From: an uncultured Ulvibacter sp.
Lineage (GTDB): Bacteria > Bacteroidota > Bacteroidia > Flavobacteriales > Flavobacteriaceae
Reading direction: 5' to 3'
DNA length: 64,000 bases
NCBI GenBank assembly: GCA_938041335.1
Contig: CALIAF010000008.1
Coordinates: forward strand, 1 to 64,000
The notes beneath the pieces were generated by a model. That model worked only from the letters and a program-made list of their open reading frames with translations. It was not told the DNA's origin and made no database searches. The position numbers and the translations under genes are program-made. Within the stretch, counting starts at the first letter, position 1, and every line of letters begins with the position of its first letter. Positions 1 through 63,777 of the stretch are shown here, piece by piece.

Positions 1-1217
1 GGCAATATCCATCCCATACTTACCCCTGCAAATGGTATAAAAGATTTAACAACATCTAATGTTTCCGAAGTTGTAAAAAACTGCAAAAAATCTGGAATGC
101 TAAATAAGAAGGTTACGAGTACCACTAATCGAAACACCAACGGCGACGCCCATTTTTGCGGCAGCACATTGAGAATGATTAAGACAATCGTTATTGGGTA
201 AATAAACATTAATGCTGGTAGTGCGATGTCTATAATATAATGTACATCAAACTGCCCTACGGCAACTCCAATGATACACCCTACTACTGCTGTAATCGTA
301 TATGCAAGTTTTGAGTCGCCGGCAATCTTCTTTACAAAATCTGCCGTACCCGTTACAATACCAACCGCTGTGGTAAAGCAGGCCAAAGCCACAAGTACGC
401 CTAAAAATGAAGTCCCAATATCACCTAATGTTCCTTTACTTAGATCTGTTAAAAGTTGTACTCTGTCATCGGTCTCAATGGTGGTATTATATTTTGCGCC
501 AAGTGCTATAAGACCGCCATAAATTACAAATAAACCAAGACCCGCAAGAAGACCCGCCTTTGCAATCATCTTTTTCTTTTGGTCATAATTTAAAGTGCCT
601 TGCAATGCCAGAGATACCACAATCACTCCTCCTACTACTACCCCACCTATGGCATCAAAAGTTTGATAGCCTTCTAGAATTCCGTCTGTAAATGTGTTTT
701 TAAAAATGGTATCACTCATAGGAGTTACATCTGCAAAAAGACCAATACTGATAATGATTAAAAGAATTAATATGATCAATGGCGTTAAAAACTTACCAAT
801 AATGCTTAGTATTTTGGTTCTATTAAGTGCAAAGACTAATACCAATGCAAAATAAATAGCACTCAATGTCAAAGAAGACATCTCGAAGTATGGTTCGATT
901 GCCATCTCGTACGTCACAGATGCCGTTCTTGGTGAAGGAAGACTGATAGATATTGCGTAAATAATAATGGCATAAATAAGCGCAAAGACGGGAGAGACTT
1001 TATTAGCAAAATCCATTAAAGTCCCTTGCAATCGTGCGTGACCGTAAATAGCCATAATTGGTATAATCACTGCAGATATTGCAAAACCAATAGAAACTAA
1101 AGGCCAACTACTTCCCGCATTATGACCTAAAAAAGGCGGTAGAATGAGGTTTCCGGCGCCAAAAAAAAGCGAGAACAATGCAAATGCGATGACTAAGGTC
1201 TGTTTATTAAAACTCAT
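1..1217 (-). CDS. brnQ: Branched-chain amino acid:cation symporter, partial (BrnQ/LIVCS family)
   Basis: Absent from the ORF track because its stop lies outside the window; I translated it from the ATG at 1217 on the minus strand. It begins MSFNKQTLVIAFALFSLFFG followed by AGNLILPPFLG, the typical BrnQ N-terminus, and continues with many hydrophobic helices (SLALQGTLNYDQKK, ALACFTTAVGIVTG). About 405 residues are present, so most of a family member of roughly 430 is here and only the C-terminus is cut by the window edge. It would import Leu/Ile/Val with Na+ or H+ across the inner membrane. It is divergent from the hydrolase at 1259, with only 41 bases between the two starts, so their promoters must overlap. 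A TTTCCGAAG word lies within it at 62-70. Confidence 0.93.
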   Translation of the reverse strand, partial: MSFNKQTLVIAFALFSLFFGAGNLILPPFLGHNAGSSWPLVSIGFAISAVIIPIMAIYGHARLQGTLMDFANKVSPVFALIYAIIIYAISISLPSPRTASVTYEMAIEPYFEMSSLTLSAIYFALVLVFALNRTKILSIIGKFLTPLIILILLIIISIGLFADVTPMSDTIFKNTFTDGILEGYQTFDAIGGVVVGGVIVVSLALQGTLNYDQKKKMIAKAGLLAGLGLFVIYGGLIALGAKYNTTIETDDRVQLLTDLSKGTLGDIGTSFLGVLVALACFTTAVGIVTGTADFVKKIAGDSKLAYTITAVVGCIIGVAVGQFDVHYIIDIALPALMFIYPITIVLIILNVLPQKWASPLVFRLVVLVTFLFSIPDFLQFFTTSETLDVVKSFIPFAGVSMGWIL

Positions 1218-1258
1218 GATATATCTTATCTTTACTTTAGAAATGCCAAGATACCTAA

Positions 1259-2029
1259 ATGATTTACAACTATAATAACACGCCTATATATTATACCATC
1301 ACAGGTACTGGCAAACCCTTGGTCCTACTTCATGGGCTTATGGAGAGCAGTACAATGTGGATAGACACTACCGCACATTTTAAAAACACCCATCAGATTA
1401 TTGCGATAGACTTACCTGGTTTTGGACAAAGTGGTAACATTGCAGCCATTCATTCTATGGATCTCATGGCAGGTATTGTCGCCGAAATTTTAAAGCGTGA
1501 ACAGATTACTTCTGCCGCAATCATTGGGCATTCGATGGGCGGGTATGTGGGGTTGGCTTTCGCCGAAAATTTTCCAGATATGATCCATGCGCTGGTCTTG
1601 TTACACTCCACAACAACCGCAGATAGCGAAGAACGCAAGATAAACAGAAACCGCGCTGCCGAGATTGTTCAAAGAAATAAGAACGCCTATATAAGTAACG
1701 CGATGAGTAATCTATTTACTCAAAAAGCGCGAGAGCAACTCCCTTCAGCAATACAAAAAGCAAAAGACGAGGCATTAACATTCAGCGCCGAAGGCATTGC
1801 GGCGGCACATTTAGGAATGCGTGATCGCAAAGACCGTGCTTCGGTATTAGCAAATTTCAGTAAAAAGAAACTCATTATCGCTGGCGTAGATGATCTCATT
1901 TTACCCCTTTCTGAAGTGCAGCACGTTTCAGAAATCACAAATACGCCACTTGTAACCATCGATTCTGGGCATATGAGTTGGGTAGAAAACAAGGTGGAAA
2001 TGTTAAAATATATGCATTTCGTCGATTAA
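1259..2029 (+). CDS. Alpha/beta hydrolase
   Basis: A 256-residue alpha/beta-hydrolase fold protein without a signal peptide, so probably cytoplasmic. Visible landmarks are the oxyanion-hole segment LLHGLMES (near residue 24), the strand DLPGFGQSG, the nucleophile elbow GHSMGG with Ser about 92, a late acidic residue in GVDDLILP, and the catalytic His in DSGHMSW near the C-terminus. The whole triad is therefore present and the enzyme should be active on an ester, thioester or similar bond; the substrate cannot be read from sequence. A TATCTTTA box at 1227-1234 could be its -7 promoter element. The gene stands alone, divergent from brnQ. Confidence 0.9.
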   Translation: MIYNYNNTPIYYTITGTGKPLVLLHGLMESSTMWIDTTAHFKNTHQIIAIDLPGFGQSGNIAAIHSMDLMAGIVAEILKREQITSAAIIGHSMGGYVGLAFAENFPDMIHALVLLHSTTTADSEERKINRNRAAEIVQRNKNAYISNAMSNLFTQKAREQLPSAIQKAKDEALTFSAEGIAAAHLGMRDRKDRASVLANFSKKKLIIAGVDDLILPLSEVQHVSEITNTPLVTIDSGHMSWVENKVEMLKYMHFVD

Positions 2030-2093
2030 TTATGTTTTTTATCGTTTTAATTGAATGGATTTACTTATATTTATCCAACCAATAAAAACAATC

Positions 2094-2533: not shown

Positions 2534-2535
2534 AT

Positions 2536-3591: not shown

Positions 3592-3819
3592 GGATAAAAT
3601 TTTGTGCAAAAATACAGGAATTAAGACTATTAAACATAAATAGAATAGATGTATTTGTAGGTAATTACCCGACGTTAAAAACCGTTAAAACTTGCCTAAT
3701 TATGGATAAACTACCTGCTTTAATCTTATATTTGTCTTCTGCTTTTATCACTATAATCTCATTTTGATCTATAATTCGTACTATTATTATATATTATTGC
3801 GTTTCAATAAAAAACGACT

Positions 3820-5259: not shown

Positions 5260-5265
5260 CCATAT

Positions 5266-6698: not shown

Positions 6699-7484
6699 AT
6701 GAAAAAGATTGCCCTTTTATTCATAGCCCTTGTTAGCTTTTTAGCCTGTGACAATGATGATGAGACTGCAACACCAGTTGTAGAAAGTGTCGTGAGTATT
6801 AGTTTTACGCAAAGCTTTGATGGAAGCCCTATCACGGCAAATGAGTTTAATGCCATATCATATACAAATGAAAATGGCGAGCAATTGAGTATTTCTCGTT
6901 TGCGCTACCTAATGTCAGACATTGTACTTACAGATGCTAATGGTACTGAGGCCGTTATTGGAGACTATAGCCTTGTAGATGTTGGAGAAAATTCTGGGGT
7001 ACTACTAGAAGCGCCCATGACATTTGAACCGGGAGAATATACGCTTTCTATGCGTTTTGGTTTTAGCGATGCAGATAATACAAATGCTGCTTATCCAGAT
7101 TTAAATGCTGCATCTTGGGGCGTTCCTGCTCCACTAGGCGGAGGATATCACTACATGCAAATGGAAGGTATGTATATAAATAGTGAAGATGTAAATACTA
7201 ATTACCAATATCACACTATTAGAGCTGCAGAAAATCCTGGAGAAGCACCTACTTTGACAGACACATCGATTGCTATTAACCTAGGGACCCTTACCATTGA
7301 AGGTAGCGTGACTATTATTGAGGTTAATATGAACATAGAAGAGTGGTATAAAAACCCAATAGTATGGGATTTAAATGAACTATACACGATGCTAATGCCC
7401 AATTATGAAGCACAAATCATGATGAACCAAAACGGACAAAATGTATTTAACCTAGGGCTAGTAAATTCTGCAATAGATAATTAA
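6699..7484 (+). CDS. MbnP-family (putative copper-binding) lipoprotein
   Basis: A 261-residue lipoprotein with lipobox SFLAC (Cys about 17) and an acidic linker. The body matches the MbnP family layout: an early VVSISFTQSFDGSPI strand, LSISRLRYLMSDIVLTDANG, a middle region with a single Trp (ASWGVPAPLGGGYHYMQMEG, Trp about 140), then YHTIRA and a beta-rich tail. Characterised MbnP proteins bind copper only after a partner di-heme enzyme, MbnH, oxidises a Trp to kynurenine. Here a MauG/MbnH-like gene follows directly and overlaps by one base (TAATG), which strongly supports the assignment. Whether Trp140 is the modified residue is inference. Confidence 0.82.
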   Translation: MKKIALLFIALVSFLACDNDDETATPVVESVVSISFTQSFDGSPITANEFNAISYTNENGEQLSISRLRYLMSDIVLTDANGTEAVIGDYSLVDVGENSGVLLEAPMTFEPGEYTLSMRFGFSDADNTNAAYPDLNAASWGVPAPLGGGYHYMQMEGMYINSEDVNTNYQYHTIRAAENPGEAPTLTDTSIAINLGTLTIEGSVTIIEVNMNIEEWYKNPIVWDLNELYTMLMPNYEAQIMMNQNGQNVFNLGLVNSAIDN

Positions 7485-8560
7485 TGAATAAAATAATTCT
7501 AACGAGTCTCATCTTATTGTTGCTTGCATCTTGCGGTAAGGACAATGATGACGCCTTGGGATATATCCCAACACCTGCTGAAATAGCAACACCTTTACTA
7601 TTTCAGCAGTTAATACCAGAGGCTGTTATACCAGAAGACAACCCGCAAACTGAAGAAGGCATCGCATTAGGAAAGCGCCTGTTTTACGACAAAAGATTGT
7701 CATTAGACAACTCGATTTCTTGCGCAAGTTGCCACAGACCACAAGAGGGTTTTTCTGATAGTCGCACCGTTAGTATAGGCGTAGATGGCGCTCCAGGCAC
7801 TAGAAACTCTATGCCACTTGTCAATCTTGCTTTTAATTACTTCGGAAATTTTAACTGGGATGGAAGCGCAGCCACACTTGAAGAACAACACGAAACGCCT
7901 ATTACCAGCCCTATAGAAATGCATAGTACATTTGCAGATATTACCGCTATGGTTGAAGCAGATGCCAATTATCCATTACAATTTGAGCAGGCTTTTAATG
8001 TGACCAATGTCACAAAAACAGAAGTTACAAAAGCGTTAGCGCAATTTGTGAGAACTATGGTTTCTGGCGACTCTAAATTTGACAGGCATCTATTAGGTGA
8101 AGCTACCTTAACGCCACAAGAACAAAATGGTCTTGACGTGTTTTTAGATGAAACAAGAGGAGACTGTTTTCACTGTCACGGAAGTCCCACAAACCCATTA
8201 TGGACAGATAATATTTTTCATAACAATGGTTTAGACACTACTTTTGATGATAGAGGTCGGGGAGATTTTACTGGAGACCCCAACCAGTTTGGGCAATTTA
8301 AGTCACCCTCATTACGGAATCTCGCTTACACAGCACCGTACATGCACGATGGCCGCTTTGCCACATTAGAAGAGGTTGTTAACCACTATAGTGAAGGTCT
8401 GGTGTATTCTGACACAATTGATCCTTTAATGAAAGCTGTTGATGTAGGTGGTGTAGCATTATCAGAAACAGATAAAGCAGACTTAGTGGCCTTTTTACTA
8501 TCACTATCAGATCCTTCTTTTATTAATAATCCTGCTTTTCTTCCTTCAAATAATCCGTAA
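7484..8560 (+). CDS. Di-heme cytochrome c peroxidase / MauG (MbnH-like) lipoprotein
   Basis: A 358-residue protein with lipobox LLLASC (Cys about 17) and two c-type heme sites, CASCH (residues 80-84) and CFHCH (228-232), as expected for the bacterial CCP/MauG family. Flanking motifs GLALGKRLFYD-like (ALGKRLFYDKRLS), FKSPSLRNLAYTAPYMHDGRFATLEEVV and a terminal DLVAFLLSLSDP also fit. Because it is coupled by one-base overlap to an MbnP-like gene, the likeliest role is oxidative maturation of that protein in the periplasm or envelope rather than simple H2O2 removal. Simple peroxidase activity is the alternative. The repeated word CTTCGGAAAT occurs inside it (7840-7849) and just after its stop (8567-8576). 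Confidence 0.88.
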   Translation: MNKIILTSLILLLLASCGKDNDDALGYIPTPAEIATPLLFQQLIPEAVIPEDNPQTEEGIALGKRLFYDKRLSLDNSISCASCHRPQEGFSDSRTVSIGVDGAPGTRNSMPLVNLAFNYFGNFNWDGSAATLEEQHETPITSPIEMHSTFADITAMVEADANYPLQFEQAFNVTNVTKTEVTKALAQFVRTMVSGDSKFDRHLLGEATLTPQEQNGLDVFLDETRGDCFHCHGSPTNPLWTDNIFHNNGLDTTFDDRGRGDFTGDPNQFGQFKSPSLRNLAYTAPYMHDGRFATLEEVVNHYSEGLVYSDTIDPLMKAVDVGGVALSETDKADLVAFLLSLSDPSFINNPAFLPSNNP

Positions 8561-8603
8561 TTTTTACTTCGGAAATACGACTACATAAAAGCATGGATTA
8601 GCC

Positions 8604-9509: not shown

Positions 9510-10955
9510 ATGAAGTACACTGAAGACGATTTAAAAAAAGAACTAGAAACCAAAGAATACGAATATGGTTTCTACACAGATATTGAATCTGAAACATTTC
9601 CTATTGGTCTTAACGAAGATATTGTGCGTGCAATTTCTGCTAAAAAAGAAGAGCCACAATGGATGACAGACTGGCGGCTAGAAAGTTTTAGATACTGGCA
9701 GCAAATGGAAGAGCCAGAATGGGCAAACGTTCATTATGAGAAGCCAGATTTTCAGGCCATCTCTTATTACTCTGCACCTAATGGTAAACCAAAATACGAC
9801 AGCATAGATGATGTAGATCCAGAGTTATTGGAAACATTTGCTAAGCTTGGTATTTCATTAGACGAGCAGAAAAAATTAGCAGGTGTCGCGATGGATGTTG
9901 TGATAGATTCGGTTTCTGTAGCGACTACTTTTAAGAGTACATTAGCAGAAAAAGGGATCATTTTTTGTAGCATTTCCGAAGCCATAAGAGAGCATCCAGA
10001 ATTGGTAAGAAAATACATAGGATCTGTGGTACCACAACGTGATAACTTTTATGCAGCCCTAAATAGTGCTGTTTTTAGTGACGGATCGTTCTGTTATATC
10101 CCTAAAGGGGTAAGATGTCCTATGGAACTTTCTACCTATTTTAGAATCAACCAGGCAAATACAGGACAGTTTGAAAGAACCCTTGTGATTGCAGATGAAG
10201 GTAGTTATGTGAGTTATCTAGAAGGTTGTACGGCGCCTAGTCGTGATGAAAACCAATTACACGCAGCGGTTGTAGAGCTTATTGCTCTTGATGATGCAGA
10301 AATAAAATATAGTACGGTACAAAACTGGTTTCCGGGTAACAAAGAAGGAAAAGGTGGTGTTTTTAATTTTGTAACGAAGAGAGGAATCTGTGAGAAAAAT
10401 GCAAAAATCTCTTGGACTCAAGTAGAAACAGGTAGTGCTGTGACATGGAAATACCCTAGCTGTATCTTAAAAGGAGACAATTCTATCGGGGAGTTTTACT
10501 CGATTGCAGTGACAAACAATTATCAGCAAGCAGATACTGGAACTAAGATGGTTCACATAGGTAAGAACACCCGTAGTACGATCATCTCTAAAGGAATCTC
10601 AGCCGGTAAATCTCAAAACAGTTATAGAGGTTTAGTAAAGATTAATAGAAGAGCAGATGGGGCGAGAAATTTTTCGCAGTGTGATTCTCTTTTAATGGGT
10701 AATGCATGTGGAGCACACACGTTTCCATACATAGAAGTAGACAATAAAACCGCACAAATAGAACATGAGGCGACAACTAGTAAAATTGGGGAAGACCAAA
10801 TTTTCTATTGTAACCAACGTGGTATTGACACAGAAAAAGCCATCGCTCTTATTGTAAATGGCTTTAGTAAAGAAGTATTAAATAAACTGCCTATGGAGTT
10901 TGCCGTAGAGGCTCAAAAACTTTTAGAAATCAGTCTAGAAGGATCTGTAGGATAA
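9510..10955 (+). CDS. sufB: Fe-S cluster assembly protein SufB
   Basis: A 481-residue SufB, the normal length. It is the scaffold subunit that forms the SufBC2D complex and on which the [4Fe-4S] cluster is built. Characteristic stretches include [62 protein letters not shown], and [42 protein letters not shown], which holds the conserved Cys and His/Glu residues of the SufB-SufD interface. The start [13 protein letters not shown] is the usual flavobacterial N-terminus. It contains a copy of ATTTCCGAAG (9972-9981). Confidence 0.97.
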
Positions 10956-16263: not shown

Positions 16264-17202
16264 ATGAAAAAAGTATTATTATTGGCAGCATGTCTAAGCT
16301 TAGGGTTTAGCTCATTTGCTCAAACAGAGGAAGAGTTAAAATCTCAACAAGCTCCTAAAACTGCGGAGATCGCAAAACTTCAAGGTGAAGTTGATGCATT
16401 ACAAGCGCAAATTGATGCTTTACCAGGATGGAAAAAAGGCGCTTTTGGAACTATAGGAGGAAGTATCTCTCAGTTTAGTAATTGGTTTAACCAAGGTACA
16501 CCAAATGTTTCTTCTGGTAACATAGGTATTTCAGGAAATGCTTTTGCTAATCTTAAGCAAGACAAATATTTCTGGCGCAATGCTTTAAATGTAAACTTTT
16601 CTTGGATAAAATTTGATGATGAGTCTATTGACACGGATGACGATAACTTTAGAGAAGCAGTAGATGTGTTTAATATTTCTTCTCTTTATGGTAGAAACAT
16701 TGCAAAAAATCTTGCAGCCTCTGCTTTAGGAGAATACAGAACTACTATCCTAAATAATTTCAACGACCCTGGATATTTAGATCTTGGTGTTGGTGCTACG
16801 TGGACTCCTTTAGCGGATTTAGTAGTTGTAGTACACCCATTAAACTACAATTTTGTATTTGCAGAGAATGATGCGGTTTTCCAATCATCTTTAGGTGCAA
16901 AAATCTTAGTTGATTACACAAGAAAAATAGGTGCGATTAACTTTAAGACTAATCTTTCTGCTTTCCGAAGCTATGAAAGTGGTGATCTTTCTAACTGGCA
17001 GTGGACCAATTCTTTTGGATACACTTTATGGAAAATGATTGGTGTAGGCTTTGATTTTGGATTAAGAGGTAACAGACAAGAAACTGTAAACTATACAAAT
17101 GGTCTTCTTCCTGCAGGCGTAACTCCTTTTGAATTAGGTGACGGTGCTGTAGACAACCAGACTCAATCTTACTGGACACTTGGTTTAAGCTACGCTTTTT
17201 AA
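16264..17202 (+). CDS. DUF3078 outer-membrane protein
   Basis: A 312-residue exported protein. The signal peptide is MKKVLLLAACLSLGFSSFAQ, followed by a short heptad-like coiled coil (KTAEIAKLQGEVDALQAQIDAL) and then a DUF3078 beta-rich domain (GWKKGAFGTIGGSISQFSNWFNQG ... FWRNALNVNFSWIKF). The chain ends in Phe (LGLSYAF), as outer-membrane barrels often do. The N-terminal coiled coil could span the periplasm toward peptidoglycan, which is inference. It is followed by a strong terminator, so it is the last gene of the suf-side cluster or a single unit. A TTTCCGAAG word is at 16972. Confidence 0.85.
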   Translation: MKKVLLLAACLSLGFSSFAQTEEELKSQQAPKTAEIAKLQGEVDALQAQIDALPGWKKGAFGTIGGSISQFSNWFNQGTPNVSSGNIGISGNAFANLKQDKYFWRNALNVNFSWIKFDDESIDTDDDNFREAVDVFNISSLYGRNIAKNLAASALGEYRTTILNNFNDPGYLDLGVGATWTPLADLVVVVHPLNYNFVFAENDAVFQSSLGAKILVDYTRKIGAINFKTNLSAFRSYESGDLSNWQWTNSFGYTLWKMIGVGFDFGLRGNRQETVNYTNGLLPAGVTPFELGDGAVDNQTQSYWTLGLSYAF

Positions 17203-17646: not shown

Positions 17647-19542
17647 TTATCTAGCTGTAATTGTAAATTCTGATCTTCTGTTTTTAGCGTGTTGTTCATC
17701 TGTACAACCATCGCCACAATTATAAATAGGTGAAGTCTCTCCTCTACCTACACCAGAGATTCTACTTCCATCTATCCCTTTGGAAATAATATACTGAACG
17801 GTAGATTGTGCTCTTCTATTTGACAGTCCTGCGTTATACTGGTCACTAGCTCTACTATCTGTGTGACTATCTGCACGTACAATCATTGTTGGGTATTTTT
17901 TCATAATAGCCACCACCTTATCTAGCTCGAAAGCTGCTTGAGGTTTAATGTTATGCTTATCATAATCAAAATAGATCGGATTTAAAACAATCTTATCTTC
18001 TACAATAATTACTTCAATAGGCTTTAACTCTATGGTCACCCTAACGTTCTCGTCATTTCCAGCAGGAACATCCATAGATGCGCTTTCGTAGTCTTTCATT
18101 ACTGCTTGAGATACATAAGCTACATCACAAGTGGTATCAAAAGTTGTGGTACCATTAGAAACGGTAGTTAGTGTTCCTAACTTGTTTTCCATCATATCAT
18201 ATAAATCTACTCTAGCCCCAGAAATAGGTTCCTTTGTATTTGCATCTATCACAACTACAGTTGCTGTAGCCTCACATAATGGCTCTAACTGTTTTACTCT
18301 ATAGATATCATCACTTCCTTTACCACCTTTACGGTTAGAAGAAACAAATCCTTCTTGTGTAGTTCCATCAAAAATAAAGGCGAAGTCATCATCCATACTA
18401 TTTACTACATTCCCCATATTCTTAACTTTTCCGAAGCCATTACCATTGGCTTCAGCATAAAACACATCCAGACCACCTAGTCCTAAATGTCCATTACTTG
18501 CAAAATAAATGGTCCCATTACTATCCACATATGGGAAAGCGTCTGTCCCTTCAGTATTTAAATTACCAGTTACCGGTGTCGGATTTCCAAAAGTACCATC
18601 TGCAAGGATGCTTACTTGGTAAATATCTGACATACCCATACCGCCAGGCCTATCACTTGAAAAGTAAAGTGTTTTACCGTCCGGGCTTAAAGCAGGGTGT
18701 CCAGTAGAGAATTCGCTACTATTAAAAGGTGCTAATTGTACATCTTTCCACTCCCCATTAACATTCTCCGCATAGTAAAGGTTAATCTGATTGATCCCTT
18801 CTTCATCTTTTTCGTAATCTCCGTCATTATAGTCATTACGGTCAAAATACATACGTTTCCCGTCTTGAGTCACAATTGCGTTTGCCTCGTGATACTTAGT
18901 ATTTACTTCTCCATCAAGCAATTTTGCATTTTTAATTGCAGATTCACCTACTTGTCCTGCCTTATATAAGTCTAAAAATGGCTCATCATTCCAGTCATAG
19001 GTTTTTCTTGTCGTATTTCTTGCAGAAGCAAAGTAGAAGTCTTTACCAATCATAAAACCTCCAAAATCTGAAAACTTACTATTTAGTTCAGTCATATTTG
19101 TCGCGGAGAACTTTGCTTTTTTCTCAAGCAATTGAGGTAAATAATCTGGGTTTTTAAGAAACTCCATCGCGCGATTATCGTTTGGCTTCATGGCAGCAAA
19201 CTTCTTCATCCATTCATTAGAATCTGCATACTTCCCATTAGTTTTAAGCGACTGTGCATAGTTATAAACCGTTTCTGACTTTACGTCTCTGGCTTTTACT
19301 ACACGCTTATAATAGGTTTCGGCTTTTTTAGTGTCATTTATAAAAAAGTAACTATTCGCTAGGCGCTCATAAACATACCTATCTCCTTTATTCTTTTTAA
19401 GGAGTTTTTGATATTCATCTGCAGCGTCTGTATAAGCAAGACGATCATAATAACCATCAGCCTTTTTAGTGTCTTTATTTTGAGCCATCATCGTACTACT
19501 GCTAATGGCTACTAAGAGTAAGAAAGTAAATATTTTTTTCAT
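17647..19542 (-). CDS. OmpA-family protein with TPR and PD40 repeats
   Basis: A 631-residue cell-envelope protein. Order of parts: signal peptide (FTFLLLVAISSSTMMAQ), TPR-like helices (DAADEYQKLLKKNKGDRYVYERLANSYF...AETYYKRVVK), WD40-like PD40 beta-propeller repeats (GHPALSPDGKTLYFSSDRPGGMGMSDIYQV, GTIYFASNGHLGLGGLDVFYAE), a carboxypeptidase-regulatory-like beta domain around ATVVVIDANTKEPISGARVDL, and a C-terminal OmpA peptidoglycan-binding domain (NPIYFDYDKHNIKP...VRADSHTDSRASDQYNAGLSNRRAQSTV). This layout, always beside PorP/SprF genes, is thought to tie T9SS type B substrates to the cell wall. It is last in the operon and has a clear terminator. Confidence 0.92.
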   Translation of the reverse strand: MKKIFTFLLLVAISSSTMMAQNKDTKKADGYYDRLAYTDAADEYQKLLKKNKGDRYVYERLANSYFFINDTKKAETYYKRVVKARDVKSETVYNYAQSLKTNGKYADSNEWMKKFAAMKPNDNRAMEFLKNPDYLPQLLEKKAKFSATNMTELNSKFSDFGGFMIGKDFYFASARNTTRKTYDWNDEPFLDLYKAGQVGESAIKNAKLLDGEVNTKYHEANAIVTQDGKRMYFDRNDYNDGDYEKDEEGINQINLYYAENVNGEWKDVQLAPFNSSEFSTGHPALSPDGKTLYFSSDRPGGMGMSDIYQVSILADGTFGNPTPVTGNLNTEGTDAFPYVDSNGTIYFASNGHLGLGGLDVFYAEANGNGFGKVKNMGNVVNSMDDDFAFIFDGTTQEGFVSSNRKGGKGSDDIYRVKQLEPLCEATATVVVIDANTKEPISGARVDLYDMMENKLGTLTTVSNGTTTFDTTCDVAYVSQAVMKDYESASMDVPAGNDENVRVTIELKPIEVIIVEDKIVLNPIYFDYDKHNIKPQAAFELDKVVAIMKKYPTMIVRADSHTDSRASDQYNAGLSNRRAQSTVQYIISKGIDGSRISGVGRGETSPIYNCGDGCTDEQHAKNRRSEFTITAR

Positions 19543-24289: not shown

Positions 24290-24408
24290 AAACTTGATTT
24301 TAGATTTAAAACACTAATGTATTTAATATTATAGCATTCGCAATAGAAGTATGGTTTTTTTAGATAAAAAGCAAAATATCAATGCTCACCAAACTAATTT
24401 GCATCTAC

Positions 24409-27400
24409 TTAATCTTCTCTATTTAAATATACCCAACCACTTACTTCTCTGCCATATGCAGGATCATCATTCTCTAGCATAATCACATAGAAATAGGTTC
24501 CAGTTGGTAATTCATCTCCTTCATTGGTTTGACCTCCCCATTGGTTCACGTAATCCAATTGTTCGTATATAGCTCTTCCGTGTCTGTTAAAAATTTGGAA
24601 TAACTCAATCCCGGAGCGATCATCTAAAAATTGTAAGTCTAATGTATCATTCATACCATCTCCATTAGGAGAGATTCCTTCGGAAATAATACAATTATCA
24701 ACATCGTACAATGAAATATCAATGGTGTCTGTACCAATACAAGTTCCATTTAAGACATTCACGGTATACGCCGTGGCACCAATGGTGCCAGCTGGTACTT
24801 GAACTATAATTGAACTTCCCGTTTCATTAGGAATAATATTCCCATCCTGATCTAACCACTCATAGGCTAAGTCGCCATCTACATCTACTGTTGCGAATAT
24901 AGTGGTATCCATATCTGGACAGGTCTGGAAGTCTGCACCTAAAGTGACTATTGGATTTGCTAAATATTCTATCCCGATAGAAGATTCTACCGTACAAACA
25001 TCTACCATAATCGTGAGCGTGTACAACCCAGTCGTATCTACGGTAATCGTAGGTGTAGTTTCACCTGTACTCCATAAATAAGTGATTCCTGTAGTGTCTC
25101 CCGAAATGTTAGGTACAATCTCAAATGGATCATCACCTTCACAGAAAGACTCATCCATTCCTAAGTCAAGGATTGGAGCATCAAAAACAGTTACTTCGGT
25201 GGTATAGACATTTGTACCACATACCGGCGCAAATACTTCTAAGGTATAAACCCCTGCTGCTGTTGGCACAAAAATAGCATCTGTTGAAACAACTGTTCCA
25301 GCCGCATCTTGCCACTCATAGGTCACTCCTGTTAAATCCACATCAGGATTTGTTGGTGTTCCATCGATTGCTGGGAAGTCTTCATTTGAACAAATTTCAA
25401 ACAATGCTGGCAGGTTAATTCCTAAATCAATATTAAGTCCTATTTCAATATTAAATTGTGTGATACTAAAGCAATTAGGTTGATTTAGTCTCTCCACACG
25501 TACCCAGATAGTTTCTGGATCTACCATATTTGTATACATTGTAGGGTCTGCAATAGCGTTTTCGCCATTCATTGCATCATCTTCTGTGGTATAGAATGTA
25601 ATCGTGAAGTCTGCTGGGCTTAAACCATTTAAAATCATATCATTCTGAGTGGTTAAGTCATAAATTGCAAACCCATCTTCGTCATCGTCACAACCTATAA
25701 TGTCATCTGGCATTTCAATATCTGGCGGTGTTCCTTCAAAATACAGCCCTATATCATCGATAGCATAATCATTTCCGCAGGCGCCGAAAACGACGTTTTC
25801 TAACACTAATTCTAGCGTTGTATTCGTTCCGGAATTAAATTCTAAAACAAAACGTTGCCAGTCTACGTCAGATTGGTTTTCAATATCACCAGTGTTAGAA
25901 GACGCTAATGTTGCACCTCCAGAAGTTTCAAATCTGTAATCAAAATTTGTTGGGTCTCCAGTACCTGGGCAGATATTAGAATCTGTGTCGTACATTGTGG
26001 TGGCCCAAACAACAAAAAAGTAATCGGTATTTGGCACTACGGTAATCTCTCTTCTATAAAATTCTGATCCTGCTGGTGAGTTACTTGCATTTATTATTAG
26101 TGCGTTTCCATCTGTATCATCTTCTGTATGATCTTCAAGACCTACATGCCAGCCATTATTTATGGGGCTTAATCCATTTTGGACCGAATACTCAGCTTCA
26201 TCCAGCTGTCCACTTCCATCAAATACAAATGGTGCTGGAAGGAAAGCGTGATCTACTGGTGAAGTACCTTGACCAAAACCTTCAAAGAATTGCGCATCCG
26301 TACAGTCAAAATCACCACAGGTTGTGGTTCTTGTAATCACCACGTCTTCAGAATAAACCGCCTCGACACCATCTGCATCTATAGTAGTTAATACCGCAGA
26401 ATATGTAGCACTAGATGTTTCAGGACACACGGTGATCATAAGATCTGTACCTAAGACCGTACCGTCTTCATCTTGCCACTCAAAAGTAGTACTTATAGCA
26501 GGGTCAACTGGACCGTTAGGGATAAAACGCCAAGTTTCATTAGTTGCCTCCCAAGCTCCGGTATTTCTACCATCTGGAACACTAAATTCTGTTAAATCAT
26601 TCCCCATCAAACCTAGAGTCGCAAGACCATCATTCCAACCTGGACAGGAAGGTTTGTTGATTAGGTTTACATCAATAATATTTAATCCTTCAAACAAGAT
26701 AATTTGCTGTGTGGTAGTAAAGCCTGGGTTACAAGCACCACCAAAATGTTCTACTTCATTAAAATTAAGAACAAACAATCTACTTCCCGGCTCCCCCGAA
26801 ATAAAATAATTAATTTGAGCTGGATCAGGGATTTCATTCGGGTCCATATCGTGATAGGCCCCATAGATAGTATTTAACGGAAAGTTGCCATTAGTAACTG
26901 GTAGCTGATCTCCTGGGCCGGAGTTCCATCCATTAAAGCCACCTGCTAAAGTCAGGTCAAATGAAATTTGCCCATTTGGACCTATTACTAAACTTGAATA
27001 ATCCGTTCCAAAATAGTTGAATGTAAAAGGTATATTTATAACACCAGACCACTCATCGTCATCAATAATATTAGTTGGAGTTCCACCATCTATAGGTGGC
27101 ACATCACATATAGGACCATTAATTTCATAAGATGTAGTTGATAGTCCTGGCAATGAACCACTCACAAAACTTGCCTCTAAATCAACACAGTTCTGCTCAC
27201 AATCTATTTCCATATCTTCAGACACTATCAATATGTCATAGCATTCTATCAAACAAGCAAACGTAAATGCTTCACTTGTGATTACACAATTAGGATCACC
27301 TGGGTCTAAACTGAATGTTACAACGGTATCATTTGCTGTATATGGCCCAAAAGTTACAATGCCCGCGGCCGCAATATTTTGAGGTGCAGATCCTTGGTCA

Positions 27401-30827: not shown

Positions 30828-30861
30828 CTTCGGAAATATACAACCTTTAAAATTTCCGAAG
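30828..30861. repeat. Inverted pair of the repeated 10-mer CTTCGGAAAT / ATTTCCGAAG
   Basis: CTTCGGAAAT (30828-30837) and its exact inverse complement ATTTCCGAAG (30852-30861) are separated by 14 bases, forming a perfect 10-bp hairpin arm. It lies in the divergent spacer, so it is not after either gene. It is built from two copies of the word enriched across the window. Confidence 0.85.
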
Positions 30862-32167: not shown

Positions 32168-32415
32168 AATGATTTTAGATTGTGGATTGACGATTTTTGG
32201 TTGTTGATTTTCTCCTTCGGAAATTTTAAACGTTAAAAACCTGCAACAAATTTAAAGTGTTGTTCTAGTCATTGCCCTTTGACTCCCGATAACTATCTGG
32301 ACATGGTGACTTTTATTTTAAATCACAGTCGTGCTGAGCCTTTCAAAGTACATCAACAGCAGTCAATTTTCTGGTATTAGCCCTTTTTTACAATTCGCCA
32401 CTCACTGCTCAATAC

Positions 32416-35577: not shown

Positions 35578-35694
35578 GGGTGGTAATTTGAGTTTAAAAG
35601 TACGATATTTTAAAGTTTTATTATTTCCGAAGTAAAAGCAAGGCGCAGGCTTGATATTTATTTGTAACTTAGATTCTTCTAAACTACTCAAAAT

Positions 35695-40394: not shown

Positions 40395-40448
40395 TGATTA
40401 ATTTATTTGGTTAACCGTGTTACTTTTTAATCACTCTTTTGGTAATGG
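40366..40448. repeat. 83-bp exact repeat, copy 2 (partner 36704-36786)
   Basis: This copy covers the terminator and the final codons of the 1408-residue gene. The two copies are 3.66 kb apart in direct orientation. Confidence 0.92.
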
Positions 40449-43400
40449 TACCAGCTTCGGTTTCAATACCAATAAAGTACACTGCACTACTCATTTCTGA
40501 AATATCTATGGTGTACGATAATCCTTCTATAACATCCATTTGCGTTATGGTTCTGCCCTGAACATCTTTAACAGATACGCTGCGAATAACACTCAAAGGA
40601 GATTGAATGGTTAAAACACCATCTGTAGGGTTAGGACTCACAGAAATTTGATCTAAAGCTACCGCCGAAGTATCCAGTACATTTCTATCTGTAAAGCGTA
40701 ATGTGAACCTATTGTTGTATATCCCTTCACTTGCAGTAAACGCATAATCAGTTTTAGAGATATCTGTAATGGTACCAAGCTCGTGATCTTCTAAATACAC
40801 CGTATAGCTTTCTATTAACGAACCATCTAATTCTTTAATACTTATCATATAGGTATCTACTTCTTCATTTTGAGTGGAGAACCCAAGGGATACTTCTTTG
40901 TCTTCCGTTAAAGCTTCTCTTGTTTGTATCCCCAAAAGGCTATTGTCATCTTCTATGTGAGAATACAATGACACAAACTTTGCAATCTGCTCGCTATCAT
41001 ACCCCGCATCAAAATCTGCTGTAGCTCCTTCTTTAAATGCAATTAATGTTTCCGAAGCAATACCAAACGCAGTACTCTCTAGTGTTAGCCAGATTCTATC
41101 TCTACTAGTTTCTGTAGTTCTTAGTGTCGTATTTCCTGTGGTCACACGCATTGCATTATTAAATGTTGCCGTTCCTGCTGCGGTTGCTTTTACACCAAAA
41201 CCTTGTGATGTTGCTATAAAACCATTGGGTGTTGTACCACCATTAGTTGCAGCTGTTCCTGCGCCAATACCTCCAGAAAGATTAAACATAGAAATGTCTT
41301 GCATACTGTAATTAACGTTATTTGCTCCAGGCAAGGCTGCATCTGGATAGGTAATATGTTCCCAGAAATACACTTCATTAATCTGCGGGTTTGCATTGAT
41401 GAAAGCTTCTGCATCTATCGCAGATGCATATGGATTTGATATCATACTTGGGCTACTGTTTTGATCTACGTGAAAATCAAGACCAAAGGTTATTGCTCCA
41501 TTGTTAAGCGTTCCATTTTCAAAACTTAAATCATAGGTCATTCCACTTTCTGTACCATTACTTTGCGGACTCACTAAATAGCCCTCGCCTGGGTTTAAAA
41601 GTCCTGTTTGCGGTGTCCAGTTGTTAAAATTATCATCGGCAAAGTTCGCCACCGTTGCAGGTGCATAATAGGCATCTACATCTGGATGCGGAAAGAAATC
41701 TAGTGTACTATGTTTATGCATTCTATACGCATTTGCATACACACCTTCTCTTGTTTCTGTGCTCATTGGACTTCCTGCAATCATAAAATCACGAGCCTGC
41801 AAAGTAGGTGTGGTTACGTTTACGTTTATAGTACCGTTGTTGGTAACGATAGCCGCATTTTCAACCTGTACTGCACTACCGGTATGTGCTACTTCTAAGC
41901 TCGATCCAGTTGCAACATTTATATCTTGTTCAATTAAAACAAAAGTCTCTGGGCTAATAATGAGTGTTGCACCATTTGTGACTGTTAACGAACAAGCATT
42001 AATAGAGCCTAGACCTACTGATGAAGTAGTATAGTCTTCATTAATAATGGCTTCCATAGTTGCATTAGGAGCACCATTGTCCCATCCACCAGCAATAGTG
42101 TAGGTTGTGGTGCCTCCTGAACAGTCGGGTAACGAATTTTCATACCAAGCAATGCGATTATCACCAAAGGAGGCCGAAAGCACATCTAGGTCACCATCGC
42201 CGTCAAGATCTGCAGCTTCTACATCAAAAGGTAAAGATGTTGCTGTGGTAATTGTCTGTTGTGCTCCAAAAGTTCCTGAACCATCATTAGCATACCAAGC
42301 AATGCGGTTATCAGTTTGTGAGGCAGAAAGTACATCAAGGTCACCATCACCATCCATATCGCCAGTGACTACATTTCGAGCGCCCATTGCCGCAGTAGTA
42401 ATTACCTGTTGCGCCCCAAAAGCGCCCATTCCATCATTTTTATACCATGCAATTGTGTTGTCACCTTGTGAAGCACAGAGCACATCAAGGTGACCATCAT
42501 CATCTAAATCTGCTGTGGTTACAGTACTTGCTCCAACTGCGGTGGTGCTTATTACTTGTTGTATTGTAAAGTTTCCATTGCCGTCATTAGCATACAAGAT
42601 AATATTATTGTCAAATCGAGACGTAGAAAGTACATCTAGGTCACCATCGCCATCGATATCGGCAGCACTAACACTGCTCGCCCCATCGGCCGTTGTGTTA
42701 ATATTTTGTTGCACTCCAAAAGCGCCCATTCCATCATTTTTATACCAAGCAACACGATCATCAATTGCGGAAGAAGAAAGAACATCAAGGTCACCATCAC
42801 CATCTAAGTCTGCCGCAATTACACTTTGTGCGCCGTTTGCTAATGTGGTAATCGTTTGTTGTGCTCCAAAAATTCCTGTACCATCATTTTGATACCAAGC
42901 AATACGGTCATCTAGAAGCGAAGCAGAGAGTACATCAAGGTCCCCATCACCATCTATATCTGCTACAGCAGTATTATTAGCGCCATCTGCTAGAACACTT
43001 ATAGTTTGACGCACTCCAAAAGTTCCCGAACCATCATTTGCAAACCAGGCAATACGGTCATTAGTATTTGAAGAAGAAACGACATCTAGGTAACCATCAC
43101 CATTAAGATCTCCAATGCTTACACTGGTAGCAAAAGCTTCGGCCGTACTAATATTGTTTTGACCCAAAGGAAATTCTCCCGGACTATTTGGGCTTACGGC
43201 TGTGGTAAATTGGTATGTGTATGGCATTATCAATGGCTCTCCTGAGTTGGCTTCTATACCAGTGGTAAGTGTCGTGGTAATAACCTCACCAGGAAAGAAG
43301 TCTCGATTAGGGTTTATGCTGGCTAATTGTCCTGAACCTTGATTAGAAAATGTGAGCGGCTCCCCTTGATTACCTAAAACTTTAACGGTAGCAGGAGTAA

Positions 43401-45251: not shown

Positions 45252-48200
45252 ATGGCAAAACAATTTAACACATACAAAGGATTAAACCTCCCAGAATTAG
45301 GGCAGGACATACTCAAATTCTGGAAAGAAGAAAACATCTTTGAAGAGAGTATTGCCATTCGCGAAGGTGCCGAGCCTTTCGTATTTTTTGAAGGACCACC
45401 TTCTGCCAATGGATTGCCAGGAATACATCACGTGATGGCGCGTGCTATTAAAGATATTTTTTGCCGTTACAAAACGCAAAAAGGGTTTAAAGTAGATCGT
45501 AAAGCAGGATGGGATACACACGGCCTGCCTATCGAGCTTGGCGTAGAAAAAGAACTAGGAATTACCAAAGAGGATATTGGTAAAAAAATATCTGTAGAAG
45601 ACTATAATGCAGCCTGTCGTAAAGCCGTAATGCGCTACACAGATGTATGGAACAAAGTAACCGAAAGCTATGGCTATTGGGTAGATATGGAGGATCCATA
45701 TGTGACTTACAAGCCCAAGTATATGGAGACGGTATGGTGGTTGTTAAAACAAATCTATAACAAAGATTTACTATACAAAGGCTACACCATCCAGCCTTAC
45801 TCACCTAAAGCAGGAACGGGTTTAAGTAGTCACGAGCTTAACCAACCTGGCACCTATCAAGATGTGACAGACACCACGGTAGTCGCACAGTTTAAAGCTG
45901 TGGAAAGTTCCTTGCCAGATTTTCTTCGGAAATATGACAACTTAAATTTTATAGCCTGGACCACAACACCTTGGACCTTGCCTTCTAACACGGCATTAAC
46001 CGTGGGCCCTAAGATTGAATATGTGGTGGTTGCTACTTACAATCAATATACGTTTGAGCCTATTCACGTGATTCTTGCTAAGAATCTAGTAGGGAAACAA
46101 TTTAAAGGCAAATACGAACAAACAGAAGATCTTGACGTTTTAACAAGCTACACCAAAGAGGATAAGAAAATCCCATTTTTTGTTGCTGAAACGTGCTTAG
46201 GGGCAGCCTTGTTAGAAATAAGATATGAGCAGCTATTAGACTACGCAACACCAGATGCTGGCGTAGAAAACGCTTTTAGAGTTATCGGAGGAGATTTTGT
46301 GACTACTGAAGACGGAACAGGAATTGTGCATACCGCACCAACTTTTGGTCAAGACGATGCCATGGTCGCTAAGCAGGCAGTGCCAGAAGTACCGCCATTA
46401 TTAGTGAAAGATGAGAATGACAATCTTGTACCGCTTGTAGATTTACAAGGTAGGTTTAGACCAGAATTGGGCGAATTTGCGGGCAAGTATGTAAAAAACG
46501 AATACTATGATGATGGAGCTGCACCAGATAAAAGTGTGGATGTTGAGCTTGCCATAAAATTAAAGACAGAAAACAAGGCGTTTCACGTTGAGAAATATGT
46601 GCACAGTTATCCTAACTGCTGGCGTACAGACAAGCCTATTTTATATTACCCATTAGACTCCTGGTTCATTAAAGTAACAGACTTTAAAGACCGTATGCAC
46701 GAGCTTAATAAAGAGATTAACTGGAAACCAAAATCTACCGGTGAAGGCCGTTTTGGCAATTGGCTTGCCAATGCAAACGACTGGAATTTATCTCGATCTC
46801 GCTATTGGGGAATCCCATTACCATTATGGAGAACTGAAGACGGTACAGAAGAAATTATCATAGGAAGTGTCGAAGAGTTAAAAGCAGAAATGGCCAAAGC
46901 AGTTGATGCTGGTTTGATGGAAAAAGATATTTACGACACTTTTAAAGTAGGTGACTTTTCCGAAGAAAATTATAACCAAATTGACTTACATAAAAACATT
47001 GTTGATGGTATAGTTTTACTCAGTGCAAGCGGGAAACCAATGCAACGGGAAGCAGATTTAATTGATGTTTGGTTTGACAGTGGTTCTATGCCTTATGCGC
47101 AATGGCACTACCCATTTGAGAATAAAGAGAAAGTAGAAAACACCTGGCGTAAAGCAGATTTTATTGCAGAAGGTGTTGACCAAACCAGAGGATGGTTTTA
47201 CACCATGCACGCGATTGCAACCATGATATTTGATGATGTAGCGTATAAAAACGTAGTATCTAACGGACTAGTGCTTGATAAAAACGGGCAGAAAATGTCT
47301 AAGCGTTTAGGCAACGCCGCAGATCCTTTTGATGTACTTGACAAATATGGACCAGATGCGACGCGCTGGTATATGATAAGCAATGCAAACCCTTGGGATA
47401 ATTTAAAATTTGACCTTGACGGTATTGGGGAAGTGCGTAACAAGTTTTTTGGGACACTGTATAATACCTATAGCTTCTTTAGTCTCTATGCGAATCTTGA
47501 TGGTTTTAATTACAGCGAAGCAGATATTGCTTTAGAAAAACGTCCAGAAATTGATCGCTGGATATTAAGTGAATTGAATACTTTAATCGCTACTGTTGAT
47601 GAGGCATTCACAGAGTATGAACCAACCAAAGCAGCAAGAGCCATACAGAATTTTGTGGGTGAAAACTTAAGTAACTGGTTTGTAAGATTGAGTAGAAGAC
47701 GCTACTGGAAAGGAAGCTATGCAGAAGATAAAATATCTGCGTACCAAACATTATATACTTGTTTGTTAACTGTATCTAAACTAGGTGCACCTATCGCTCC
47801 ATTTTTTATGGATCGTTTGTATCGTGATCTTGTTGCTGTAACAGGAAAAGGAGAAAAATCTGTGCATTTAAGTGACTTCCCTAAGAGCGATGCGAGTTTT
47901 ATTGACAAGGACTTAGAACGTAAAATGGAAAAAGCACAAACGGTATCTTCATTAGTGTTATCACTGCGCCAGCGTGAGAAGATTAAAGTGAGACAACCCC
48001 TTCAGAAAATAATGATTCCTGTACTAGACGAACAAGGAAAAGAAGAAATTGTAGCGGTAAGTGACTTGATAAAAAGTGAGGTAAATGTTAAAGAAATAGA
48101 GCTCATTGATGAAGGCTCTGGCATTCTTGTAAAACAGATTAAGCCAGACTTTAAAAAGTTAGGACCCCGTTTTGGAAAAGATATGAAACAAGTAGCTGCG

Positions 48201-52754: not shown

Positions 52755-53324
52755 CTACCTTTTAGTAAAAGAGTGAATGATTTCTGGAGTAACAATATAG
52801 TCTAATGGAACGTCTAACTCCTCTGCGGGCAAGCTATCTTCAGGCTCAAAAAATGAAAGCCCAACAGTTATAACATTTTCCGGACATTCTAATAAAAAGC
52901 GATCATAAAAACCTTTTCCATACCCTACACGATTGCCGCTTTTATCATACGCCAAGAGTGGCACAAAAACCACTTGTATTTGAGATGAAGAGACTTCAAT
53001 ACCATCTAAAGGCTCTGGAATACCGTATTCTGAAATTTTAATCGTCGTGTTTTCTTGTAATAAGATATGAGTCATTTTCATGCGATCAAAATCTGCTCTA
53101 GGTACTAACACAGACTTATCTTTGCCTTGTAAGATATGTAACACATACTCTGTATTTACTTCTTTTTTATTTTGAATAGGCAAAAACATATGATAGTATG
53201 TGGCATCCCAAATAGGAAGTCGTAAGACTTGATTTGCGATGGCAAGGCTCATTTCTTCAATAATTTCTTCGGAAAGCTCCGCGCGTGACGCTTTGTATTT
53301 TTTACGTAGTTCCTGCTTATTCAT
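52755..53324 (-). CDS. 5-formyltetrahydrofolate cyclo-ligase
   Basis: A 189-residue enzyme converting 5-formyl-THF to 5,10-methenyl-THF with ATP. Signature elements: N-terminal KQELRKKYKASRAELSEEI, the central LVPRADFDRMKMTHI, the ATP loop RVGYGKGFYDRFL and GLSFFEPEDSLPAEELDVPLDYIVTPE near the end. It shares one base with the upstream aspartoacylase-like gene (ends at 53324), suggesting co-transcription with the RimK cluster, though a functional link is not obvious. A CTTCGGAAA word is at 53267. Confidence 0.95.
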   Translation of the reverse strand: MNKQELRKKYKASRAELSEEIIEEMSLAIANQVLRLPIWDATYYHMFLPIQNKKEVNTEYVLHILQGKDKSVLVPRADFDRMKMTHILLQENTTIKISEYGIPEPLDGIEVSSSQIQVVFVPLLAYDKSGNRVGYGKGFYDRFLLECPENVITVGLSFFEPEDSLPAEELDVPLDYIVTPEIIHSFTKR

Positions 53325-56656: not shown

Positions 56657-57015
56657 TTTGTTAGGTATGTATATGGCAAGTTACATAAAAGCTTCAAATA
56701 ATTGTTATCGATCTGTGTAGGTGGCCGCTTTACAATAGCGGTTTTTTTATTTCGATTTCTGGCTTTTTAAAGACGGTTTGAATCACGACCATACCCGCGG
56801 CACTGTGCGAAACAAGACGGGTAGTTACATTATTAATTCGTCTTGGGTCGTGTAGCTCGCACCGCAAGCGATCGTAGGTCTCAACGTCCTACCCAAGATA
56901 TTAATTCAAATTTTAGATCAAGCCCCAACAACAAATACCTGACGGCAGCGCGATATCAAATAAACTTTAACAAAAATTCAAGACAGCACATTTCCGAAGG
57001 CTAAAAAAATGCCTT
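56657..57015. other. Non-coding spacer with inverted repeats and an orphan hairpin
   Basis: No gene seen in about 360 bases. A small plus-strand hairpin CCGCT-TTACAAT-AGCGG followed by TTTTTTT (56725-56748) looks like a terminator, but no plus-strand gene precedes it. Further on, TCTTGGGT (56841-56848) pairs with ACCCAAGA (56891-56898), and ACGACC with GGTCGT around it, in a locally GC-richer stretch. This could be an eroded gene or a structured RNA. ATTTCCGAAG lies at 56990-56999. Confidence 0.4.
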
Positions 57016-58821: not shown

Positions 58822-58878
58822 CTCTTTTAAAATAGAATCGTTATTTTACTGGTATCAAATTAAATCTTGTTTCCATTC

Positions 58879-62083: not shown

Positions 62084-62267
62084 AATATTAAAATTTATTT
62101 GTTAGAACATAAATTTCCTAAAAAAAAAATGACACAAACAAAAATTAATCTGTTAAAGTTTTAATTTACAGCAAACTATAGCAAATATGTAGAAGAAATA
62201 ACAAAGAGATAATCACACCCATATTAATCTAAAATTCCGATATTTGTAGGACTAAGACCTAACAATT

Positions 62268-63431
62268 ATGCCATTATACCACACGCTGGGAAAAATCCCA
62301 CACAAACGCCATACACAGTTTAGAAAACCAGACGGAAGTTTATATAGTGAACAGCTTTTTGGGACCATTGGTTTTGATGGTATGTACACAAATATGTATC
62401 ATGAGCATCGCCCTACAATGGTCAAGGAGATTAAAAACCAATATAGCGTTGCGCCCAAGATTGCTGTAGAAAACAACATTAAATCCTATCGTTTAAAAGG
62501 ATTTCAGGTACAACCAGAAGATGACTATTTAGATAGCAGAAAGGCCATACTTACTAATAGCGATTGCACGATTATTCTTGCAGCACCTAGACATTCTATT
62601 AAGGACTACTTTTATAAAAACACAGATTCAGACGAGCTGCTTTTTGTACATAAAGGAACAGGAAAACTGCGTACTCAACTAGGAAATCTAGATTTTAAAT
62701 ATGGGGATTATTTATTGATCCCACGTGGTATGATTTATCAAATAGACTTTGATACAGAAGACAATCGCCTGTTTATTGTAGAATCTCGCAGCCCTATTTA
62801 CACCCCAAAAAGATACCGAAACCATTTTGGTCAATTATTAGAACACTCCCCATTTTGTGAGCGCGACATTCGACGTCCTTATGAGCTAGAAACACATAAA
62901 GAATTAGGTGACTTTCTACTTAAGGTGAAGAAAAAAGATGAAATAATAGAGATGGTCTATGCAGCGCACCCTTTTGATGTTGTGGGTTATGATGGTTATA
63001 ATTATCCATACGCGTTCTCTATTCACGATTTTGAACCTATTACAGGACGTATACACCAGCCGCCACCAGTGCATCAAACTTTTGAAACAAATGCTTTTGT
63101 AGTGTGCTCTTTTTGCCCAAGATTATATGATTATCATCCAGAAAGTATACCGGCTCCGTACAATCATAGTAATATAGATAGCGATGAAGTTTTATACTAT
63201 GTAGACGGTGATTTTATGAGTCGTAATGATATTGAAGAGGGACACATTAGTCTTCATCCAGCAGGAATACCTCACGGCCCACACCCAGGAGCGGTAGAAA
63301 GAAGTATTGGTAAAAAAGGAAGTGATGAACTTGCTGTTATGGTAGACACCTTTAAACCACTTATGGTCACAGAAGAGGGATTAAAGCTTTCTGATGGCAC
63401 TTATCATACAAGCTGGTTGGATCACGATTAA
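62268..63431 (+). CDS. hmgA: Homogentisate 1,2-dioxygenase
   Basis: A 387-residue cupin-fold dioxygenase that opens the ring of homogentisate to maleylacetoacetate in Tyr/Phe degradation. Family features: N-terminal MPLYHTLGKIPHKRHTQF and LFGTIGFDGMYTNMYHEHRPT, the central DELLFVHKGTGKLRTQLGNLDFKYGDYLLIPRGM cupin strand, and the iron/substrate region NSNIDSDEVLYYVDG-like (HSNIDSDEVLYYVDGDF) and GHISLHPAGIPHGPHPGAVERSIG with the His ligands. No other tyrosine-catabolic gene is in the window, so the pathway is completed elsewhere. Confidence 0.95.
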   Translation: MPLYHTLGKIPHKRHTQFRKPDGSLYSEQLFGTIGFDGMYTNMYHEHRPTMVKEIKNQYSVAPKIAVENNIKSYRLKGFQVQPEDDYLDSRKAILTNSDCTIILAAPRHSIKDYFYKNTDSDELLFVHKGTGKLRTQLGNLDFKYGDYLLIPRGMIYQIDFDTEDNRLFIVESRSPIYTPKRYRNHFGQLLEHSPFCERDIRRPYELETHKELGDFLLKVKKKDEIIEMVYAAHPFDVVGYDGYNYPYAFSIHDFEPITGRIHQPPPVHQTFETNAFVVCSFCPRLYDYHPESIPAPYNHSNIDSDEVLYYVDGDFMSRNDIEEGHISLHPAGIPHGPHPGAVERSIGKKGSDELAVMVDTFKPLMVTEEGLKLSDGTYHTSWLDHD

Positions 63432-63777
63432 TTTTTATTAGATTTTCTACTTCGGAAATATGCCATATTTATTTATGGTATAATGACCCGACTTTCTCGA
63501 CGCATCAGGAGTCTAAGTATGATTAAGAAACAAAATCTAAAAGAGTGCACTTTGTCTTTTGATGCAGTCAAAGTGACTACTAGTTTTCTGTAATAGTAGG
63601 GTTTCTCGATTAAGAAGTAACACATCACATGTTACAAAGGCTATGTTTTAAAATTATTGACAAAGGTTCTAATTCCATAATATTTCAGAAATAAAATAAC
63701 ATAATCTCGTCTTTTAAGCGTTAGAGTTTTTACTTTTGGTACAGCTATTGCAAACACTAGGGTAAAGACCCGAAAAG
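63432..63777. other. Spacer between hmgA and the DUF3108 gene
   Basis: No gene seen. It contains CTTCGGAAAT (63450-63459), a small hairpin TGCCATA-TTTATT-TATGGTA just after it, and a 7-bp inverted repeat CACTTTG...CAAAGTG near 63548-63572. The minus-strand ORF at 63641-63835 runs through the start of the next gene and is not credible. Confidence 0.4.

Follow-up and report, generated by a model that had tools for sequence, protein, structure and literature searches.

A genus-specific, divergently paired word in Patiriisocius genomes is a probable DNA uptake sequence

The 9-mer TTTCCGAAG, lying within the motif TRAHATTTCCGAAGnAAWWA, is strongly over-represented in a stretch of 64,000 nucleotides from an uncultured Ulvibacter sp. 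(the window: positions 1 to 64,000 of contig CALIAF010000008.1, assembly GCA_938041335.1) and in related genomes. Its sequence properties indicate that it is probably the DNA uptake sequence (DUS, also called uptake signal sequence, USS) of a Patiriisocius subgroup, recognized by an uptake machine that would operate without pili and dock DNA directionally. The word was found genome-wide and was specific to the genus, balanced between the strands, evenly spread, present both within and between genes, imposed on codon choice and turning over between species, in genomes that carry competence genes; together, these properties made an uptake-type signal the best reading.

Materials and Methods

The window is part of contig 8 of a draft genome of 3.25 Mb (G000; 96.9% complete). 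This genome was compared with those of an uncultured 'Ulvibacter' (CANLBJ; G005) and Patiriisocius marinistellae KK4 (G008; contig C1 = NZ_BKCF01000001.1), all three belonging to one genus. All assemblies were drafts, and genes were called by a simple open reading frame (ORF) and codon model. The pairing of neighboring words was analyzed base by base in about 1.7 Mb (1.68 Mb) from the three genomes, with 530 8-mers of an abundance similar to that of the word and 2000 label permutations per species as controls. Copy numbers outside this analysis were obtained by whole-genome searches with the reversed word as the background control, and k-mer ranking, flanks and gene context were obtained from sampled stretches. 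Expected counts were calculated with an order-3 Markov model of 458 kb of G000, and the background of the window from 100 dinucleotide-preserving shuffles. Conservation at aligned sites of G005 and G008 was measured mostly in coding DNA.

Abundance and lineage distribution of the word

The window contained 17 copies of TTTCCGAAG, which was the most frequent of its 9-mers with at least four G or C. The 10-mer ATTTCCGAAG occurred 11 times, whereas the shuffles gave a mean of 0.16 and a maximum of 1, in agreement with the excess claimed by a sequence-only reading of the window. Neither of the two findings that this reading had named as grounds for refutation, a whole-genome count near the Markov expectation or a lack of enrichment outside the window, was obtained. 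G000 contained 474 copies of ATTTCCGAAG (235 on the plus strand and 239 on the minus strand) compared with 17 of the reversed word, and its 458 kb held 109 copies of TTTCCGAAG and 74 of ATTTCCGAAG against Markov expectations of 2.06 and 0.54. The relatives were enriched as well. Four large genomes of the genus, including G000, had 474, 605 (G005), 345 and 833 (G008) copies, equally on both strands, with 14–21 copies of the reversed word. In sampled DNA of G000, G005 and G008, TTTCCGAAG and ATTTCCGAAG or their complements had the top Markov z among 9-mers and 10-mers; in P. marinistellae, 126 copies of the 10-mer were present where 0.8 were expected. These results showed that the over-representation is genome-wide.

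Five genomes of the genus had 58, 97, 69, 133 and 32 copies of the 17-mer TRANATTTCCGAAGNAA, the 34 other genomes searched had 0–2, and its reversed form was absent throughout. Six small genomes of the genus (1.7–2.1 Mb, 77–90% complete) had 6–34 copies, near or slightly above background. When 400 genomes of the family (~250 genera) were surveyed, most had fewer than 30 copies and about a dozen genera had roughly 80–350; the word-richer genera included Ulvibacter, Aequorivita, Altibacter, Marinirhabdus, Aureisphaera and Aureitalea.

Alignment of 476 copies gave a full motif of about TRAHATTTCCGAAGnAAWWA. Upstream of the core, T (0.66) was preferred at −5, A (0.69) at −3 and A (0.79) at −1, and there was hardly any G at −2; downstream, any base was found at +9, where G was rare, followed by A at +10 and +11, A or T at +12 and +13, and A at +14. 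Coding and intergenic copies shared the same core and flank. Weak AT signals, clearest in the intergenic copies of G000, recurred at around −16 to −12, about 10 bases before the −5 block. In other genera, only the weaker core TTCCGAAGnAA was found, mostly within genes; it was enriched several-fold over Aquimarina and Gilvibacter in loci of Aequorivita, Altibacter, Aureitalea and Marinirhabdus.

Orientation of neighboring copies

Balanced orientation, noted for the window in the sequence-only reading, held there (nine copies on the plus strand and eight on the minus) and across the genome, but locally the orientation was strongly structured. Among adjacent words 60–800 bp apart in the three species, 54 pairs were divergent, with their ATTT ends facing each other, 14 were convergent and 12 pointed the same way. 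Below 300 bp, divergent pairs accounted for 36 of 47 in G008, 8 of 12 in G005 and 5 of 5 in G000, proportions that were reached in 0, 1 and 1 of the 2000 label permutations, respectively. Coding sequence did not lack this order: 22 of the 27 pairs in G008 that were less than 800 bp apart with both members coding were divergent. Same-way neighbors within 1 kb were depleted in G008 (13 observed, about 34 expected). None of the 530 control 8-mers showed a comparable order, which indicated that the signal probably has a direction. Exactly 25–28 bp separated the members of 7 of the 37 close divergent pairs in G008, for which positions 1-800000 of contig C1 were analyzed, and no clear period was detected when the pair distances were examined for helical phasing. 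Divergent pairing was not seen in the related genera with the weaker core.

Gene context, codon choice and turnover

The word was 3–5 times denser between genes than within them (1.26 and 0.24 copies per kb, respectively, in P. marinistellae). Genic copies occurred in both senses and in several reading frames, and the genic core of G005 showed an antisense excess (21 sense, 50 antisense). An element acting in RNA, such as a UUCG-tetraloop hairpin or an intrinsic terminator, might be suspected from the CTTCGG on the reverse strand and from a few short convergent pairs that resemble terminators in having a T run after the stem. However, most copies lie in genes, copies between co-directional genes were used similarly in sense and antisense (7 and 10 in G000, 21 and 25 in G008), and the T run was absent after most divergent pairs. 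A is present at +9 in only 37% of copies, so the base that would extend a UUCG stem is not conserved, and the hairpin was rejected as a general cause. We regard an RNA-level element as extremely improbable; the signal acts at the DNA level.

Where the encoded amino acids allowed the word, synonymous codons were bent toward it. TCC made up 4–5% of Ser codons overall, but 23 of 63 and 33 of 63 (37–52%) in the context NTT-Ser-GAA-G; likewise, TTC-GGA made up 6–8% of Phe-Gly pairs, but 22 of 28 and 24 of 35 (69–79%) in the context of the word. The word is thus imposed on synonymous codons. It is scarcely credible that the word has no role of its own and merely reflects a bias in the use of codons or dipeptides or the spread of a mobile repeat of the repetitive extragenic palindromic (REP) or miniature inverted-repeat transposable element (MITE) type. 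Other enriched words, ATTTCAGAA and TTTCAGAAA, were codon-phased and would fit the former, and a codon effect does explain these secondary words. In contrast, TTTCCGAAG is denser in intergenic DNA, occupies several frames in both senses and forces rare codons, and the synonymous-codon test led us to reject a codon effect as its cause. REP and MITE elements were rejected by comparing the flanks of pair members, which were unrelated (identity 0.28, compared with 0.30 for random pairs) and therefore did not belong to a longer repeat.

Over 800 kb of one contig, 123 copies lay on the plus strand and 138 on the minus strand; in the first 400 kb, where the GC skew has one sign throughout, the counts were 68 and 75. 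Each 25 kb of the 800 kb contained 3–15 copies, the longest gap was 14 kb, and the spacing was under-dispersed (coefficient of variation 0.77). In G008, a low-GC cluster of the O-antigen polysaccharide type occupied one of the longest gaps. The strand counts bear on a Chi-like hotspot, which the sequence-only reading had named as an alternative, or on another polar word of replication or segregation, such as the FtsK-orienting polar sequences (KOPS), read by RecBCD/AddAB or an FtsK-like motor. The signal is oriented, and divergent pairs would halt exonucleases arriving from either side, judging from the known polarity of Chi. However, Chi and KOPS are strand-skewed and enrichment between genes is not expected of them, and the balance of the strands here disfavors such a word, which we consider very unlikely.

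When G005 and G008 were compared in alignable DNA (73% identity), only ~10 of about 46–50 words were common to both, and many had been replaced by unrelated letters. This turnover between species indicated that a genome-wide supply of words is maintained and not the individual sites. It also bears on the possibility that the word is the site of an abundant intracellular protein that organizes or bridges the chromosome, opposed sites being bridged into loops and hence divergently paired. Oriented pairs spaced 60–250 bp apart resemble cooperative looping by a dimer, and the even coverage of the genome would suit such a protein; but most copies are unpaired, the depletion of same-way neighbors below about 1 kb is not predicted, and fast turnover, together with dense occupation of coding DNA at the expense of codon choice, argues against it. 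We know of no chromosome-organizing site with such copy number and evenness, and we consider a bridging protein unlikely. Taken together, gene context, strand balance, even spread, codon imposition and turnover spoke against an explanation of the word as a terminator, a Chi site, a mobile repeat or a product of codon bias.

Competence genes

ComEC and DprA were present in G000, together with homologues of most of the pilus-free competence genes of Riemerella. A gene pair encoding CarboxypepD_reg and DUF5689 proteins was found in G005 and G008, with recA ~5 kb away in G005; the corresponding operon is essential for transformation of R. anatipestifer (PMC8459023). An Exo_endo_phos_3 nuclease gene adjoined the pair in both genomes (L144:264-1274 and L216:14068-15117), and a member of the same family lies in the window at 29830-30765. 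Further matches in G000 were to DUF5689 and to the DUF1343 family, and this genome also encodes a double-HHH protein whose N-terminus has a hydrophobic segment. The DUF5689 protein had two tandem DUF5689 domains at G000:C61:35572-37023 and G005:C1:178270-179733 (742–745 aa frame) and one domain in P. marinistellae (490 aa frame). A competence machinery in these genomes is plausible from their gene content. Competence genes were rejected as a correlate of the word, since word-poor congeners also have them.

Copies of the word in the window

All 11 positions of ATTTCCGAAG given by the sequence-only reading were recovered, and 7 of these copies were intergenic, as it had stated. The copy at 8567..8576 (minus strand) lay 6 bp past a gene end at 8560, that at 32215..32224 (minus) between convergent genes, that at 56990..56999 (plus) 28 bp ahead of uvrC (57028-58821), and that at 63450..63459 (minus) 18 bp past a gene end at 63431. 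The copies at 30828..30837 (minus) and 30852..30861 (plus, with the full flank TAAAATTTCCGAAGAAA) formed the left and right halves of an intergenic divergent pair with 25 bp spacing. The seventh, at 35623..35632 (plus), was intergenic by the gene model and fell within a mechanical upstream extension of a TTG-start ORF (33220-35691). The four genic copies were at 7840..7849 (minus, with the full flank TAAAATTTCCGAAGTAA) in the gene 7484-8560, at 9972..9981 (plus) in sense within a sufB-like gene (9510-10955), at 24678..24687 (minus) in sense within the gene 24409-29103, and at 45924..45933 (minus) in antisense within the gene 45252-48650. This last copy was divergent with a 9-mer in sense in the same gene at 46957..46965 (plus), ~1 kb away.

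Five of the six positions at which only the 9-mer TTTCCGAAG had been reported were right, and the sixth, given as 16972, was found at 16962..16970 on the plus strand within the gene 16264-17202. Besides the copy at 46957, the other 9-mers were at 62..70 (plus; antisense within a coding frame), 18428..18436 (plus; antisense within the gene 17647-19542), 41049..41057 (plus; antisense within the gene 40420-44646) and 53267..53275 (minus; sense within the gene 52755-53324).

Two other kinds of short repeat were observed. GGTGGTGGT recurred in short clusters at 23007-28655 of the window, inside the large minus-strand genes 20516-24289 and 24409-29103, which suggests repeated protein segments. Tandem arrays of 7 bp, (CACTACT)n or (AGTAGTG)n, were present on contigs C7 (L018:18333-18414) and C3 (L027:15528-15560) of G000, and single 12-base matches to them occurred in the stretches L009 and L011.

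Interpretation as a DNA uptake sequence

The sequence-only reading had likened the word to a DNA-uptake signal. Such a signal gave the best fit to the sequence features and fits every one of them except the divergent pairing, for which we found no description among known uptake sequences in the open-licence literature. In the mechanism that we propose, the word on free double-stranded DNA would be recognized at the cell surface by a receptor belonging to a competence machine that lacks type IV pili. DNA of the same lineage would then be imported preferentially, with ComEC, DprA and RecA, and recombined. Alleles bearing the word would be imported more often, and words would accumulate where constraint permits, to about one per 3–7 kb. 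The pairing suggests docking with polarity: on a DNA loop passing through an outer-membrane pore, both members of a divergent pair would be presented the same way on its two arms. Alternatively, import might be one-sided, in which case a tract drawn in by one site would include the other only if the two were divergent.

Several points weigh against an uptake sequence. No receptor was identified. In G000, no secretin was matched and the best T2SSE match was under the cut-off, leaving no pilus ATPase above it, so that the known class of receptor, the type IV minor pilin, appears to be unavailable. Word-poor congeners carry the competence genes equally, and the genes alone do not explain specificity. 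The weaker, mostly genic and unpaired core in related genera may mean that the word is older or has a different role. The simple uptake model does not predict the pairing, because paired sites brought no extra uptake in Haemophilus (PMC7811141). No uptake experiment on Patiriisocius was found in the open-licence literature.

According to a 2025 paper (PMC12616744), Neisseriaceae and Pasteurellaceae are the only groups for which self-specific uptake is known. A literal literature search for the word gave, among the matches listed, only unrelated and apparently chance occurrences in printed sequences. We tentatively propose that this could be the first uptake sequence outside Proteobacteria, serving a pilus-free machine of Bacteroidota, and a directional one: the divergent pairs and the depletion of same-way neighbors would mean that docking or threading has polarity. 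If true, this would add a third case, independent of the other two, from a different phylum and without type IV pili, and would show that such words arise repeatedly in evolution. It would also indicate a novel kind of receptor for DNA, for which the Riemerella competence operon supplies candidates, and offer a practical route to transforming marine flavobacteria. The pairing geometry makes the directionality of uptake directly testable.

Comparison with known systems

Like Chi sites, the word is short, frequent, non-palindromic and oriented; unlike them, it lacks strand skew, is denser between genes and bends synonymous codons. The USS of Pasteurellaceae (Haemophilus influenzae) likewise has a non-palindromic core of 9–10 bp, hundreds of strand-balanced copies and AT-rich flanks; it is enriched between genes while also occurring in them, favors one orientation in reading frames, and forms terminators with some inverted pairs (PMC7811141, PMC2346458). 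A favored reading orientation has been described for both USS and DUS (PMC2346458). The present word differs from USS in sequence and phylum, in the lack of a detectable type IV pilus secretin or ATPase in G000, in its lower density of about one copy per 3–7 kb and in divergent pairing that extends to 250–800 bp, whereas close USS pairs of H. influenzae are −/+ at 0–3 bp and +/− at 10–14 bp (PMC7811141).

The DUS of Neisseriaceae and its dialects resemble the word in that copy number and flanks vary by lineage around a common core, and their close inverted pairs are terminators (PMC2397512, PMC3630211). The sequences are unrelated, however; DUS is bound by ComP, a minor pilin of the type IV machinery, which was not found here, and no description of a divergent order over hundreds of bases was found for DUS in the open-licence literature. 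In the known cases of both kinds, a type IV pilus with a minor-pilin receptor (ComP, ComN/PpdA) is typical rather than definitional, and no counterpart of it was found in G000.

A further system is that of Riemerella columbina (Weeksellaceae), which prefers its own DNA; the words that came out as commonest in a raw count there were all A-rich (PMC7965970). No motif was found in that case, and no competence experiment on Patiriisocius was found in the open-licence literature. The two share the same order, self-preference was demonstrated in R. columbina by competition, and a pilus-free machine with the CarboxypepD_reg and DUF5689 operon is known from R. anatipestifer (PMC7965970, PMC8459023).

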